In this document: in pieces, positions 29,122-62,221 of the stretch | How positions within the stretch are numbered: the stretch's first letter is position 1 | Layout of the letters: each line of letters starts with the position of its first letter | From: Elusimicrobium sp. | GTDB lineage: Bacteria; Elusimicrobiota; Elusimicrobia; Elusimicrobiales; Elusimicrobiaceae | Length of the DNA: 64,000 nt | Direction: 5' to 3' | Assembly: GCA_015062115.1 (NCBI GenBank) | Contig: SUVG01000003.1 | Location: 1 to 64,000, forward strand | Notes under the pieces: model-generated | Seen by the model: the letters and a program-made list of their open reading frames with translations, nothing else | What the model was told of the DNA's origin: nothing | Databases searched by the model: none | Program-made: the position numbers and the translations under genes

Positions 29122-29976
29122 CTAAAATTCTACCTCTGCCGAAACCGAAAAAAAGGTTTTGCGGGTTTCTTTCCTTTTTGGCTCAAACACTTCCACCCCG
29201 GCCGAAAAATCAACTCCCCATAAGTGTAAGTGCGCCCCGGCGCTGACCGCGGCAGCGGCATCGTTCAATGTGGCGTATCGGTATTGCGCCCATGCCAAAT
29301 AGGGTGTTATTAAATCGGTTTGATAACTTACCCGCAAAGCGGCTGTTTCTTTAATAAAACCCTGTAGCACAGCCGTCATAAACGGAACATCTGCCCAACT
29401 AAACGATATGTTTTGCGGGGCACTGTTCTTATATTTTATCACTTTATGCCACACCGCGTTAAACCGCCACTGTTTTAAGTCGGCACCGGCTTCTATTTGG
29501 GCGGAAGTTTCTACCTGGGAAAAAGGCCCGGAGGCTAAATCAACCCCTTGTTCGTCCACATAACTTTTGTAACGAATTTGCCCCGCTTGAAACCCGACAT
29601 AAGGATTTGTGAAAGATCCCAAACGGTAAAACGGAATCCACTTGGCATCCGCTAAGTAACCAACTGCCTGATACCCCAATGCTTTGGGTTGCCAAAAACC
29701 TTCCGTGCCTACCAGCCACGCGTCCGACAATTCATACAAAGCCTTCAGGCCGTAGCGCGAGGTAGAACCGGCCTCATCGATGTCTTTGTCCGACATACGG
29801 TAATACCCGTAAGAGGGAACCAGAAAGAAGCCGTTATCCAAATTCCAATCGTATGCGGCGCGCACCGCCACATACCCGCGTTCTCCGTTTACCCCCGAAA
29901 AACTAACCTGCCCGTAGCAGAACGCACACGGGCAGATTAGTAGCAGTAAACTGATTAACGCTTTTTTAAGCCACAT
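29122..29976 (-). CDS. Predicted outer-membrane beta-barrel protein
   Basis: 284 residues with a signal peptide (MWLKK, hydrophobic LISLLLLICPCAF, cleavage near CYG-Q). The mature part is made of alternating amphipathic strands rich in Tyr/Trp/Gly and ends in Phe (AEVEF), as outer-membrane barrels do. I recognise no specific family. Its ATG overlaps the stop of the upstream deoxyhypusine-synthase-like gene by one base (TAATG), with no own SD, so it should be translated by coupling. Confidence 0.75.
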   Translation of the reverse strand: MWLKKALISLLLLICPCAFCYGQVSFSGVNGERGYVAVRAAYDWNLDNGFFLVPSYGYYRMSDKDIDEAGSTSRYGLKALYELSDAWLVGTEGFWQPKALGYQAVGYLADAKWIPFYRLGSFTNPYVGFQAGQIRYKSYVDEQGVDLASGPFSQVETSAQIEAGADLKQWRFNAVWHKVIKYKNSAPQNISFSWADVPFMTAVLQGFIKETAALRVSYQTDLITPYLAWAQYRYATLNDAAAAVSAGAHLHLWGVDFSAGVEVFEPKRKETRKTFFSVSAEVEF

Positions 29977-31052
29977 TATTTTTTGGCTTTTTTCGCTTTC
30001 AAAGCCGCCACTTTGGCATCTTCGTCTTGCAAGAATTTGACATAGTTAGAGGCTTTGCGTTTTTTCCAGGCACCCTTGTGGTAGCCGTACCCGATAATTA
30101 ACGGGATAAGCGTGGTGCATTCGCCATAGACCATTTGTTCCAAGGCGGTGGAAACTTTACCCCAAGAAGAGGCTTCTTTGAGGGTGGAACCGGAAAGGGC
30201 CCCGTCGCGCACGTCGGCTACCGTGATTTGTACGGCATATTTGTGCATGGGGGAATCCGCACCCAAGATTTCAGCCGCTACTACGGTGTCTTGCGCAAAG
30301 TTTTTCGGTACGCCGCCGGACCACATCATAAGACCGGTTTCTTTGGCTTTGATTTTGATTTTGGTAAGTTCCAAGAAGTCTTTAGCGCTGTCGATGGAAA
30401 CATGGGCTTCCGGATGTTCCGTTTGGTGGGCTACGAAGCCGAACCCGGCAGAGCAGTCGGAGAAGGCCGGCACAAACACGGGCACGCCGTATTTATAGGC
30501 ATTATAGACGATAGAATCTTTACCTTTGCCTTTCTTTTCCAACCATTTACCCATTTCCCAGATAAATTCGCGGGAAGAGTACGGGCGGGGTTCCAAGGAG
30601 TTGCAAATTTTGTAGATGGTTTCGTCGCAATCTTTCAATTGGTCTTCGTCGATATAGGTATCGTAAATGCGGTCGATGTGTAAATCGCGCAACAAGTTAT
30701 CGTCTTGGTTGTAGGGGGTGCCGATGTAGTGTTTATACCCAAGGGCTTCAAAAAAGTCTTGGTCTACAATGTTGGCGCCGTTGGAAACAATCGCGTCAAC
30801 CATGTTGTTTTGAATCATATCCACCACTACTTTCTTCATGCCGGCGGATACTAAAGAACCCGCGATGCACAAAATGACAGAGCATTTCTTGTCGGAAAGC
30901 ATCATGTTATAGATTTTGCTCGCTCTGGCCACTTCGCGGGACGCATAGGCCATGCTCCCAAAGGCTTCCACCATAGGAACCACATTGTATTTTTTCAAAT
31001 CAATGTGTTTGATGGTATCTTTGAGAAAGTCTTTTTTGGTAAGTTTTGCCAT
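29976..31052 (-). CDS. Deoxyhypusine synthase-like enzyme (polyamine transfer)
   Basis: 358 residues of the deoxyhypusine synthase family. NAD/spermidine-site features include SGANIVDQDFFEALG, MMWSGGVPKNF and SSWGKVS; Lys299 of WGK aligns with the catalytic Lys of human DHS. Bacteria have no eIF5A substrate, and bacterial members are thought to act on free polyamines (homospermidine synthase-like). No other polyamine gene is nearby. The C-terminal tail is Lys/Ala-rich. SD AGAGGTG is present. Co-transcribed with the outer-membrane gene. Confidence 0.9.
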   Translation of the reverse strand: MAKLTKKDFLKDTIKHIDLKKYNVVPMVEAFGSMAYASREVARASKIYNMMLSDKKCSVILCIAGSLVSAGMKKVVVDMIQNNMVDAIVSNGANIVDQDFFEALGYKHYIGTPYNQDDNLLRDLHIDRIYDTYIDEDQLKDCDETIYKICNSLEPRPYSSREFIWEMGKWLEKKGKGKDSIVYNAYKYGVPVFVPAFSDCSAGFGFVAHQTEHPEAHVSIDSAKDFLELTKIKIKAKETGLMMWSGGVPKNFAQDTVVAAEILGADSPMHKYAVQITVADVRDGALSGSTLKEASSWGKVSTALEQMVYGECTTLIPLIIGYGYHKGAWKKRKASNYVKFLQDEDAKVAALKAKKAKK

Positions 31053-31204: not shown

Positions 31205-32452
31205 ATGTACCCGAATTTACAACAAACAGACCCTGCCGTTTTTGATGCCGTAACCAAAGAACTTTCCCGCCAACGCGAAAAATTGGAATTGATTGCTTCG
31301 GAAAATTTCACTTCCTTGGCCGTTATGCAAGCCCAAGGCTCCGTGCTGACCAATAAATATGCCGAAGGGTACCCGGCCAAACGCTACTATGGCGGCTGTG
31401 AACATGTGGACACGGTGGAAACGTTAGCCATTGAACGCGCCAAAGAACTCTTTGGGGCGGAACATGCCAATGTGCAACCTCACTCCGGAGCCCAAGCCAA
31501 CATGGCCGTTTACTTTGCCTTGCTTCAACCGGGCGATACCGTTTTGGGCTTAAATCTTTCCCACGGGGGGCACTTAACTCACGGGCATCCGCTCAATTTT
31601 TCCGGCAAACTGTACAACATTATTGCCATGAATGTCCGCCCCGACACGGAAGAAATAGACTACGAGGAAGCCGCCAAACTGGCCGCCGAGCATAAACCGA
31701 AACTTATTTTAGCCGGCGCTTCCAACTATTCCCGTATTTTCGATTGGAAGCGTTTACGCGAAATTGCCGACTCCTGCGGGGCTTATTTAGCGTGCGATGT
31801 GGCCCACTATGCCGGGCTTATTGCCGCCGGAGAATACCCCAACCCCGTTCCCTATGCCGATGTGGTTACCACCACTACACACAAAACTTTACGCGGCCCG
31901 CGCGGCGGCCTTATTTTGTGCAAAGAAAAACTGGCAAAAGCCATCAATTCTTCTGTTTTCCCCGGTGTTCAGGGCGGGCCTCTTATGCATGTAATCGCGG
32001 CAAAAGCGGTTTGCTTTGGCGAAGCCTTGAAACCCGCGTTCAAAGCCTATCAACACCAAGTTAAACTAAACGCGGCGGAACTGGCCAAGCAACTCTCCTC
32101 CCGCGGATATCGTTTGGTAGCGGGAGGGACGGACAGCCATGTAATGTGTATTGATTTGCGCTCTAAAGGCATTACGGGCAAAGTGGCGGAAGCCGCTTTG
32201 GACAAAGCCGGCATTACCGCTAACAAAAACACGATTCCTTTTGACCCGGAAAAGCCGTTTGTAACCAGTGGGTTGCGTATCGGAACCCCGGCGGTAACCA
32301 CACGCGGTATGAAGGAAGAACACATGGCACAAGTAGCCGCTTTTATTGACGAGGCTATCTGCCACCATGATGACGAAAAACACCTCGCAAACATAGCGGA
32401 AAAAGTAAAAACATTTTTGCAAGATTTTCCGCTCTATGCACAATTAGGCTAA
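31205..32452 (+). CDS. glyA: Serine hydroxymethyltransferase
   Basis: Interconverts serine and glycine with THF, supplying the methylene-THF used by ThyX. 415 residues. PLP-binding Lys227 lies in [14 protein letters not shown], and the N-terminal [13 protein letters not shown] and [13 protein letters not shown] segments are typical. Excellent SD AAGGAGG at 31192-31198. Single gene with its own terminator. Confidence 0.98.
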
Positions 32453-32458
32453 TCTTAT

Positions 32459-32487
32459 ACCCCCGCAATCAGGCGGGGGTTCTTTTT
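32459..32487 (+). terminator. glyA terminator
   Basis: Perfect 8-bp stem ACCCCCGC (32459-32466) / GCGGGGGT (32473-32480), 6-nt loop, followed by TCTTTTT. Confidence 0.88.
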
Positions 32488-32607: not shown

Positions 32608-33930
32608 ATGAAGAAACTTTTTTTATTTTTCATTTTATTATCTTTTTTGGTACCCGCAGGCTCCGCCCAAAAAGCCTTGCCAACCGTTGGGAAGGCTCTT
32701 TCTAAAGAGGCGATCCAAAAAGCGGCATCGTCCACTGTTTCTGCCACTAGTATTCTTTCCGAAGTCGCAAATATCCCTGTCTCTGCCGCGGACACACCCA
32801 CCTTACAAAATTTTACCCAACCGGAAATTCGCCCCATGCCTTTACCGCAACACTCCCGCTCTATCGTCATGGCACCCGTTCGTCCTTTTTTGGAAGATGC
32901 CACCTTGCCGGAAATGCCGGACGCTCCGGGCCGCACGGGAAAAACGATATTGCCTTCTTTAGATCATTTGAAAAAGATTTTTTCTTTTCGGGAAAAACAG
33001 GCCGAGAAAAAACGCATGGCCGAATTTGACAGCCGCGCGGACGAGTCGGTCATCGCTATTCAAGATAGCGCCGATGATATGTACGGGGCAACTCCTTTTA
33101 CCGCAACGGCCTTTGTAATTGAAGAAGAATTTGAAGGGAAAAAGTATCTTTGGGGGGTTACCTCCGCCCATGTACTTAATGTGTTGGGGCCCGATTTCTA
33201 TGTGCATATCCCCGGCTTCCCTTTGCCATGGAAAAGCAATGTATCTTTTATGGGAGACCCCGGTATGGCCGACATAGCCATTTTCCCGATTCCGGAAGGC
33301 CAAGAATCGTGGCTAAACCCTATCCCTTTGGCCGATAAAGACCCCGAAGTGGGAGAAAAACTGCGCTCTTTCGGATATTTTAACGGCGGGTTTCATGTTG
33401 TACGCAACAGAGAAGTACAAGAAGTAACAAAAGGGAGAATCATTACTTCTTTGGAATTTAATACCACTGAAAGAGGCGGTGCCTGCGGAGGCCCGCTATT
33501 GAACACAAAAAACGAAGTGGTAGGTATCCACTGCGGAAGTTCCAGCAAAAAACAAATCAGTTTTGTGGTTCCCGTTTGGCAGTTAAAAGATTTATTGACC
33601 GCTTATCGTAACGGCGGGCGCGCCATGAAAAAATTAAAATTCAGAAATCATGAAATCGGTGAAATAAACATCAACCAATATATTTCCAGCATTAGGGTCT
33701 TTTCTAACGGAGAAAAAATCGACGAGTTCGATACCACCCACCAAGCCAAAAGCATCGATTACGAACATTTGGAAGATTTAGTTTATGCCGAAGGAGCCGA
33801 CCGAATAGAAGTTAACCTTAGCGGACAATATAACCCGCAAAAACCTTATTCGTTAAAACAATTTTCCTACTCGGTGGTTTATCTCCCCTTTGAAGAAAAA
33901 GTTTTTATAGAAAGCCCCTCCAAACCTTAA
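32608..33930 (+). CDS. Secreted chymotrypsin-fold protease with cysteine nucleophile
   Basis: 440 residues. Signal peptide MKKLFLFFILLSFLVPAGSA, then an Ala/Ser/Pro-rich region of about 120 residues, then a trypsin-like domain (about 145-335). Triad by motif: His188 (TSAHV), Asp222 (MADIAIF), and Cys293 in GGACGGPLL, where S1 proteases have GDSGGPL. The codon is TGC, so Cys is encoded. The GxCGG form is that of viral 3C-type cysteine proteases, so activity with Cys is plausible, but an inactive protein is also possible. The C-terminal 110 residues are of unknown fold. No SD precedes the ATG. Stands alone. Confidence 0.8.
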   Translation: MKKLFLFFILLSFLVPAGSAQKALPTVGKALSKEAIQKAASSTVSATSILSEVANIPVSAADTPTLQNFTQPEIRPMPLPQHSRSIVMAPVRPFLEDATLPEMPDAPGRTGKTILPSLDHLKKIFSFREKQAEKKRMAEFDSRADESVIAIQDSADDMYGATPFTATAFVIEEEFEGKKYLWGVTSAHVLNVLGPDFYVHIPGFPLPWKSNVSFMGDPGMADIAIFPIPEGQESWLNPIPLADKDPEVGEKLRSFGYFNGGFHVVRNREVQEVTKGRIITSLEFNTTERGGACGGPLLNTKNEVVGIHCGSSSKKQISFVVPVWQLKDLLTAYRNGGRAMKKLKFRNHEIGEININQYISSIRVFSNGEKIDEFDTTHQAKSIDYEHLEDLVYAEGADRIEVNLSGQYNPQKPYSLKQFSYSVVYLPFEEKVFIESPSKP

Positions 33931-33934
33931 AACA

Positions 33935-33965
33935 AAAACCTCTTCTTTTCGGAAGAGGTTTTTTA
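33935..33965. terminator. Bidirectional terminator between protease gene and Sel1 gene
   Basis: Perfect 11-bp stem AAAACCTCTTC (33935-33945) / GAAGAGGTTTT (33952-33962) between convergent genes, with A- and T-rich flanks suited to both directions. Confidence 0.88.
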
Positions 33966-33967
33966 CT

Positions 33968-35092
33968 TTAATTTTCCAGTAAGGCTTTGGCAGATGCGTT
34001 GCCGTTTTGGGCGGCCCTTAAAAGCCATTTCTCGCCGGCTTTTTTATCAACCGGAACACCCAACCCTTTCCAATAAATTTGTCCCAACACATATTGGGCG
34101 GCCGTATGTTCCTTTTCTGCCGCATCGCGGAAAAATTTGATTGCCAACTGTACCGAACGGTGAGTTCCCTGCCCTTGCATCAGCATAAAGCCCGTCATGT
34201 ATTGGGCTTGGGGGTAACCGCCCTCGGCGGCATTGGAAAACCAAGCAAAAGCATCTTCGTATTTCGGGGGATTTTCTTTATAAGAGCGTTCACCCAAAAG
34301 ATATTGGGCAAGCGGGCTTTTCTTTTCCGCCGCCGCGCCTAATAATTCCAAGGCTTTGGCTTCGCTCTTTTCCACCCCCCACCCGTTTTGGTATAGTTCG
34401 GCCAATTCGCATGCCGCCTCGGCAGATTGGTTTTCTTCCCAAGCGGCCGTAAGCCAAAAAACGGCTTGTTCGTCATCTCGCAAAATGGGAAATCCCGTAC
34501 GATACGCCCGGCCTGCTTCTAGACGGCTGGCGGCATTTCCTTGCTTGGCCAAAGCCAAAGCATCTAAAAAGTTTTGAATTTGTAAAAAGAGTTCCGGGTT
34601 CTCTTTTTCGGTCTGTTGCACAAGAGCCTGTGCTTTTTTATCCCCGTTTTGAGCGGCCAAAAAGCGCCAGTATAGCGCTTGCGCAGGGTGGACGGGCAAT
34701 CCGGCCAGCCCTTGTTCGTAAAAGCGTCCTAATTCGGATTGGGAAGCGGCATAGCCGGCCCGTGCGGAAAGTTGCAAATAGGTAAGGGCTTCTTCCAAAT
34801 CTTGCGGAACAAGCACTCCGGTGATGTAAAGTTGGGCTAACAGCCACGAGGCTTCGCTGCTGCCGTCCACGGCGGCTTTGCGGTACCACTCCGCAGCCTG
34901 CGTGCCGTTTTGCGCAGTTCCTTCCCCCGCGGCATACAGTTTGCCCACCGAAAGGGCCGCGTTCATATCTCCTGCTTGGGCGGCGGCGAGCGTTTTGGCA
35001 AACATTTTTTGTTGCGGAGTTTTATAAAAAGCAAAACGATACACTAACCCTGCAATCAATAAACAAACCGCTAATTTTATTATTGTCTTCAT
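33968..35092 (-). CDS. Sel1-like repeat (TPR-related) protein
   Basis: 374 residues. An N-terminal hydrophobic segment (about 5-23) gives a signal anchor or signal peptide, so the rest lies in the periplasm. It is followed by about eight Sel1 repeats of some 36 residues, recognisable as A...LG..Y..G.GV..D...A..W...AA..G...A units (for example ALSVGKLYAAGEGTAQN and AQYVLGQIYWKGLGVPVD). Probably a protein-interaction scaffold. No enzymatic motif. SD AGGA is present. Confidence 0.88.
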   Translation of the reverse strand: MKTIIKLAVCLLIAGLVYRFAFYKTPQQKMFAKTLAAAQAGDMNAALSVGKLYAAGEGTAQNGTQAAEWYRKAAVDGSSEASWLLAQLYITGVLVPQDLEEALTYLQLSARAGYAASQSELGRFYEQGLAGLPVHPAQALYWRFLAAQNGDKKAQALVQQTEKENPELFLQIQNFLDALALAKQGNAASRLEAGRAYRTGFPILRDDEQAVFWLTAAWEENQSAEAACELAELYQNGWGVEKSEAKALELLGAAAEKKSPLAQYLLGERSYKENPPKYEDAFAWFSNAAEGGYPQAQYMTGFMLMQGQGTHRSVQLAIKFFRDAAEKEHTAAQYVLGQIYWKGLGVPVDKKAGEKWLLRAAQNGNASAKALLEN

Positions 35093-61585: not shown

Positions 61586-62221
61586 TTAAAAACGGCAACC
61601 GAGTTTAAGCATCACATTTACATAATGCAAGCGATCTTTGCCGAATTGGGTTCTTACTTCGTCGGCGGCTTCTACCAAATAGTAGCGGCCTTCAATACCG
61701 AAGATAACGGTTTCGTCGATATCAAATTCCAACCCCAAACCGATCATTTGCGCAAAGTCGGTTCCGTCGGTGGTGACATGGGAGCCGTCATCATTTTTTT
61801 TGCGGGCAAAAATATGGCCGGCGCCAACACCGAACGGAATATATACGCGGGTGGCTTGAGACGGGAAGAAGTTCACACGACCCGTTACCAAAGCGGTGGC
61901 AATACCGGTGCGGTAGTAAGATTGACCGGTGCCATTGCTAAATTTGTCGCCGTCTCCCAGTTGGGCATAGTTTGCGTCCAAACCCAAAGCAAAAACCGGG
62001 ATAACATTGCGGGTAAAACCGATACCGGCCGTCCAGCCTGTTTGGCCCAAGTCCACTTGTTGGCTTTTATAAGTCCAAGAATCTTGGGGGATATTCATAC
62101 CGCCGTAAAATTCTACGCGGGTGGTGTTTTTGCGCAAGCCGTATTCTTGCAAACCGTAGTAATCTTGCGCTACGGCGGGCAAGGCGAACAGCAAAGCACA
62201 CAAAGCTAATAATTTTTTCAT
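61586..62221 (-). CDS. Outer-membrane beta-barrel protein (OmpA-like barrel)
   Basis: 211 residues. Signal peptide MKKLLALCALLFALPAVA cleaved before QDYYG. About eight amphipathic strands with Tyr/Gly-rich patterns (GGMNIPQDSW, WTAGIGFTRNV, FGVGAGHIFARKK, GLGLEFDIDETVIFGIEGRYY in two parts) and a C-terminal Phe (LGCRF). It fits the 8-strand porin family (OmpA/OmpX type) without a peptidoglycan-binding domain. SD AGGAG. Confidence 0.85.
   Translation of the reverse strand: MKKLLALCALLFALPAVAQDYYGLQEYGLRKNTTRVEFYGGMNIPQDSWTYKSQQVDLGQTGWTAGIGFTRNVIPVFALGLDANYAQLGDGDKFSNGTGQSYYRTGIATALVTGRVNFFPSQATRVYIPFGVGAGHIFARKKNDDGSHVTTDGTDFAQMIGLGLEFDIDETVIFGIEGRYYLVEAADEVRTQFGKDRLHYVNVMLKLGCRF

Follow-up and report, generated by a model that had tools for sequence, protein, structure and literature searches.

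An exported chymotrypsin-fold protein family of Elusimicrobiaceae with a predicted cysteine nucleophile

The gene at 32608..33930, its predicted fold and its export

The stretch of DNA analysed here, which we call the window, is the first 64,000 nucleotides of contig SUVG01000003.1 from the Elusimicrobium sp. assembly GCA_015062115.1, a gut member of the Elusimicrobiaceae whose genome is 1.44 Mb long and 96% complete. It contains on the forward strand a gene whose product is, in our judgement, quite likely a Sec-exported endopeptidase of the chymotrypsin fold with a Cys293-His188-Asp222 triad, belonging to a family centred on the Elusimicrobiaceae that arose from serine-type enzymes and expanded by tandem duplication and turnover. 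A sequence-only reading of the gene had quoted the motifs SAHV (His188), ADIAI (Asp222) and GGACGGPLL (Cys293, encoded by TGC), and all of them are found in one open reading frame, whose parts are as follows.

32608..33930, + strand: gene for the exported Cys-triad protein of the chymotrypsin fold; open reading frame of 440 amino acids with an ATG start and a Pfam Trypsin_2 match, the sole full family copy in the genome
32608..32667, + strand: predicted signal peptide, residues 1-20, ending in PAGSA directly before Q21; called from the sequence, with A20 and Q21 conserved in the family
32668..32958, + strand: N-terminal segment, residues 21-117, of variable length and low confidence (AlphaFold predicted local distance difference test, pLDDT, mostly 46-65), with low column occupancy in the family
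32959..33033, + strand: helix preceding the protease core, residues 118-142, in the AlphaFold model
33043..33609, + strand: predicted chymotrypsin-fold protease domain, residues 146-334; AlphaFold pLDDT mostly >90, Foldseek matches to HtrA/DegP, PF13365 at residues 167-307
33169..33171, + strand: predicted catalytic His188 (SAHV); His in 148/151 members, aligned with the catalytic His of Deg2
33271..33273, + strand: predicted catalytic Asp222 (ADIAI); Asp in 141/152 members and Asn in 10, aligned with the catalytic Asp of Deg2 and V8
33472..33474, + strand: Arg289, four residues ahead of the predicted nucleophile; Arg in 129/172 domains
33484..33486, + strand: predicted nucleophile Cys293 (TGC), GxCGG within GGACGGPLL; Cys in 167/172 domains, Ser in 0
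33529..33531, + strand: His308 in GIHxGS, equivalent to the S1-pocket His213; His in 115/153 members, aligned with V8 GIHWGG (role of His213, PMC5508998)
33625..33909, + strand: predicted C-terminal beta domain, residues 340-434; seven predicted strands, kept throughout the family
33934..33963, + strand: intrinsic terminator-like hairpin 3' of the gene, from a pattern scan

The protein matches Pfam Trypsin_2 (PF13365) at 40.1 bits against a cut-off of 27.6, and its closest relatives match the same model at E <= 0.01 in 16 of 16 cases. In an AlphaFold model built on the family alignment, residues 121-400 lie mostly above pLDDT 90, and Foldseek matches this model to HtrA, DegP and DegQ enzymes and to HTRA1, the last with a template modelling (TM) score, by target length, of 0.76 across about 205 columns. 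Profile alignment places His188, Asp222 and Cys293 on the catalytic His, Asp and Ser of Deg2 (4fln); against V8 protease (1wcz), Asp222 and Cys293 fall on their catalytic counterparts and GIHxGS falls on GIHWGG. Prediction and profile alignment together confirm the double beta-barrel trypsin fold as far as a model can. The C-terminal region had been described as being of unknown fold, and this holds with respect to solved structures, as no PDB match is better than E = 1.1; folded alone, however, the region is predicted to form an all-beta domain of seven strands (AlphaFold pLDDT 82.6).

The signal peptide proposed from the sequence is borne out by the family, in which A20 is present in 134 of 147 members and Q21 in 134 of 145, and this conserved signal peptide and A/Q site support Sec export. 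Signal peptidase I would cleave off residues 1-20, and the protease would then act in the periplasm or extracellularly. A strictly anaerobic life in the gut, where thiols are kept reduced, may have allowed an exported Cys protease to persist. The Gln that follows the predicted cut resembles the Q-rule of Bacteroidetes, a rule reported to be absent from phyla related to Bacteroidetes (PMC5837995). Among the other exported proteins of the loci, a rough count gave no clear general enrichment of Gln, with exceptions such as the protein encoded at window 61589-62221. We also considered a link to type IX secretion, with the C-terminal domain as a sorting signal and an SprA-like neighbour, and rejected it: Pfam does not match the large neighbouring protein c37 to SprA, and the PDB has no match to the C-terminal domain.

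Conservation of the predicted triad

From 60 loci we collected 153 family members, and with further loci taken later the set grew to 172 domains. The triad is intact as His-Asp-Cys in 154 of the 172, and the nucleophile position is occupied by Trp (twice), Ala, His and Tyr in the five domains that lack Cys. The sequence-only reading had staked its proposal on an alignment of relatives, in which Ser at this position would mark the Cys as an isolated change; the relatives carry Cys instead, and since it is fixed family-wide, chance, an isolated mutation and a sequencing error at Cys293 are ruled out. The Cys codon is TGC in 131 and TGT in 17 of 148 counted, both being one change away from Ser codons. 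Against a mean column identity of about 14% across the family, the His, Asp and Cys columns and those of the flanking Gly residues are within the top seven in conservation among 333, with G291, G294 and G310 among the most conserved positions. In the subset used for the tree we count 0 changes at His and 2 at Asp, compared with a median of 28 per column. The ratio of nonsynonymous to synonymous substitution rates (dN/dS) is 0.13-0.29, or about 0.2, in the close pairs where it could be computed, pairs that include the window gene being near saturation.

These patterns bear on a pseudoenzyme family, the alternative already raised from the sequence, in which proteolysis was lost with the change from Ser to Cys and the domain survived as a binding module, periplasmic or extracellular. 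Some paralogues do have broken triads (H-N-C in 10; Q-D-W, H-N-A, S-D-H and H-D-Y singly or in pairs), and replacing Ser by Cys in an evolved Ser hydrolase usually lowers activity (PMC6642262). However, a binding module has no need of His, Asp, Cys and both glycines together, and the triad columns remain among the most conserved despite the low overall identity. Several decayed copies (A and H) belong to one paralogue group of the glyA array, where Asn replaces Asp and Glu replaces the S1 His, which gives a picture of relaxed constraint. We therefore regard a pseudoenzyme family as unlikely, and for the window gene the conserved triad, the glycines flanking the nucleophile and the dN/dS of about 0.2 argue against it. 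Near-identical Gln-Asp-Trp members are found in two species (L059, 3909-5033, and L067, 6032-7156) with a dN/dS of 0.145, which suggests a constrained non-catalytic member of the family.

Another way to account for a conserved Cys293 is as a structural or regulatory thiol, that is, a disulfide partner or metal ligand and not a nucleophile. A second Cys, Cys309, lies close to the active site in the sequence and is common to 37 of 153 members, but in 60 of the 153 the mature part has a single Cys, which argues against a general disulfide role, and Cys293 aligns precisely with the catalytic Ser of both Deg2 and V8. We give this explanation hardly any weight. Cys309 (window 33532-33534), which directly follows the S1 His, is a possible redox partner of Cys293.

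The predicted fold, the profile alignment and the conservation thus support the proposal of a bacterial exported Cys-triad protease of the trypsin fold, and what they point to is a lineage-specific family, probably active, and not one gene alone. In such an enzyme Cys293 would attack the scissile bond while His188, held in place by Asp222, serves as general base, and the oxyanion hole would be made up of main-chain NH groups near G291-C293. Target binding or positioning of the enzyme is the probable task of the C-terminal beta domain.

Relation to known proteases and origin of the cysteine

The window protein resembles the Trypsin_2/HtrA serine proteases (DegP, DegQ, HTRA1, Deg2) in fold, triad order and the D-I-A and GxxGGP loops, and differs from them in its Cys nucleophile, in having another C-terminal domain instead of PDZ, and in its V8-like S1 His. 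It falls outside the HtrA/Do class as defined by profile scores, with 12-19 bits for the NCBIfam Do/HtrA models against cut-offs of 250-800; Pfam finds no PDZ domain in it, and the Ser nucleophile of that class is not present in any of the 172 family domains, 167 of which have Cys. The V8/glutamyl endopeptidases (1wcz, 1qy6) are likewise exported and of the chymotrypsin fold, and their GIHxG S1 motif aligns residue for residue. We know of no extra C-terminal domain of the window-protein kind in the V8 group. That group consists of serine enzymes (PMC5508998), whereas the window protein has a Cys nucleophile.

With the picornaviral 3C and 3C-like proteases (PF00548) the window protein has in common the GxCGG loop, the S1 His and a Cys nucleophile in the same fold, and the 3C-type arrangement of C293 in GACGG with His308 in GIHCGS is found family-wide. 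PF00548 matches weakly around the nucleophile (E 0.038 for the window protein and 0.0031 for the best relative), and the 14.4 bits of the window protein lie below the family cut-off of 22. The shared Cys nucleophile and S1 His would be a likeness in mechanism that does not imply descent. Unlike viral 3C, the window protein is cellular, exported and stand-alone, and since it is closer overall to the bacterial HtrA enzymes, the 3C likeness is most simply explained by convergence. We rejected horizontal acquisition of a 3C gene from a virus: phage records and IMG/VR contigs contained no relatives (RNA-virus genomes were not searched by sequence), plasmids gave one weak match to a Ser protease, and the top structural matches are HtrA enzymes. 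A role in a defence system was also rejected, as the PADLOC match to RT-Protease_XI covers only the trypsin-like part and the reverse transcriptase is absent. To our knowledge, chymotrypsin-fold proteases with a Cys nucleophile have been described essentially from viruses. Searches of open-access literature turned up no such bacterial family, which is weak evidence as subscription papers were mostly not covered.

His213 in chymotrypsin numbering is common to the glutamyl endopeptidases and the 3C/3CL proteases (PMC5508998), and His308, as its equivalent, would shape an S1 pocket like that of V8 and 3C, which predicts cleavage after Gln or Glu at P1. The same review raises, as unverified, the idea that the nucleophile makes Cys enzymes prefer Gln, the Glu-specific ones being Ser enzymes (PMC5508998). 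If our reading is correct, a lineage that naturally contains related Ser and Cys enzymes would allow a test of whether the nucleophile sets the preference for Gln or Glu, and an enzyme cutting after either residue could serve as a sequence-specific protease.

Beyond the genus, the strong profile matches are to domains in giant proteins, which come from a single sister genus (G133, G239) and from a genome at greater distance (G242). These domains are His-Asp-Cys, apart from one Ala-Asn-Ala and one Ser domain that occur in the same set of giants. The giants at four loci (L182, L183, L190 and L189) are 1056-3968 amino acids long with 1-4 trypsin-like domains, mostly Cys-type, and few other Pfam domains; the copy that has lost its triad (Ala-Asn-Ala) is in L182. 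A domain in a further giant, L188, from another genus whose giants carry Ser, is ambiguous: it has the motif GNCGLGFSGG, and we did not count it as Cys-type because its apparent Cys probably reflects a misalignment. The Elusimicrobiaceae giants and IgA1 protease (7uvk) both carry a PA-fold domain in a very large protein, and no nearer relatives were found beyond the genus than the Cys domains of the former; the window protein differs from these large proteins in its compact build, a single protease domain and a C-terminal beta domain of its own.

The giants bring up a further explanation, in which the Cys nucleophile serves mainly acyl transfer or self-processing (transpeptidation, autocleavage or maturation of large surface proteins) and not the cleavage of foreign proteins. 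Cys domains inside proteins of this size recall viral 3C domains in polyproteins, but the window protein and its congeners are exported as separate proteins, and their genes lie mainly among housekeeping genes, with no large substrate in common. We think such a function improbable.

Ser is carried by the HtrA enzymes, by a single-copy paralogue of about 260 amino acids, and by giants of another genus. With the nucleophile column removed before the tree was built, the Cys rows group together in 61 of 62 cases, the odd one being L188, and a single Ser-to-Cys change from Ser-type Trypsin_2/HtrA-like enzymes is the simplest reading of this pattern. We lean, by a narrow preference, towards a cellular exported family that expanded in gut Elusimicrobiota after one nucleophile switch, convergent with 3C in its Cys and S1 His, and probably preferring Gln at P1. 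Several observations weigh against the main explanation, a family of exported Cys-triad endopeptidases derived from Ser-type enzymes. The basal nodes of the Cys group have moderate support (92/76, 85/89), and two long-branch Ser rows attach there. The equivalent of position 190, usually Ser or Thr in enzymes specific for Glu or Gln, is Glu288 in the window protein and variable across the family, with Arg289 conserved instead. The few paralogues with broken triads indicate that part of the family is drifting toward non-catalytic roles. Should the preferred reading be right, a large bacterial family with a fixed Cys would show that the switch from Ser to Cys has succeeded in a cellular lineage.

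Chromosomal arrays, empty sites and neighbouring genes

Beyond what the sequence-only reading had covered, the gene belongs to a genus-wide multigene family with tandem arrays, domain relatives in giant proteins and a predicted S1 pocket like that of Gln/Glu-specific enzymes. The search for relatives returned matches in many genomes of the same genus, up to 13 in one, and a profile search of 66 congeners gave strong family matches in roughly 47 (counted by eye from the best E-values). Next to its one full copy, the window genome separately carries an ordinary Ser-type paralogue of 260 amino acids with the motif SPSSSGSP. The family genes stand in tandem runs of 1-7 per locus at about eight recurring chromosomal addresses, a number counted by eye from shared neighbour genes. 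The address of the window gene is bordered as follows.

31205..32452, + strand: glyA, flanking the conserved array address on the left; Pfam SHMT, neighbour in about 20 loci
33968..35092, - strand: Sel1-repeat gene, flanking the conserved array address on the right; Pfam Sel1, its cluster in 24 loci

This address, between glyA and the convergent Sel1-repeat gene, is found in about 20 loci with 1-4 copies, and the outer neighbours are conserved on both sides. In four congeners without strong family matches (L208, L212, L213 and L214) glyA directly adjoins the Sel1 gene, leaving an empty site, and in the tree the window gene clusters with the glyA-address copies of congeners. The family probably arose by one Ser-to-Cys change, after which copies were duplicated in tandem and turned over at fixed places in the chromosome. 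A genome scan across the whole collection, which used one peptide motif and may have missed members elsewhere, matched mostly uncultured metagenome-assembled genomes of Elusimicrobiaceae and Elusimicrobiales, including UBA1436, one from yak rumen and one from horse faeces. NCBI places the genus Candidatus Avelusimicrobium in the Elusimicrobiaceae, and the window genome may, as a guess, belong to it.

The genes flanking the arrays at different addresses are mostly housekeeping genes, and this neighbourhood suggests no functional partner. Turnover of copies at fixed addresses would be easier to reconcile with variable external substrates than with a housekeeping function, and proteins of the diet, the host or competitors are candidates. 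A second terminator-like hairpin from the pattern scan lies downstream of glyA (32459-32480), and with hairpins after both glyA and the protease gene, the latter is probably transcribed alone. A deoxyhypusine synthase homologue (310 bits, window 29976-31052) adjoins glyA here and in many congeners.
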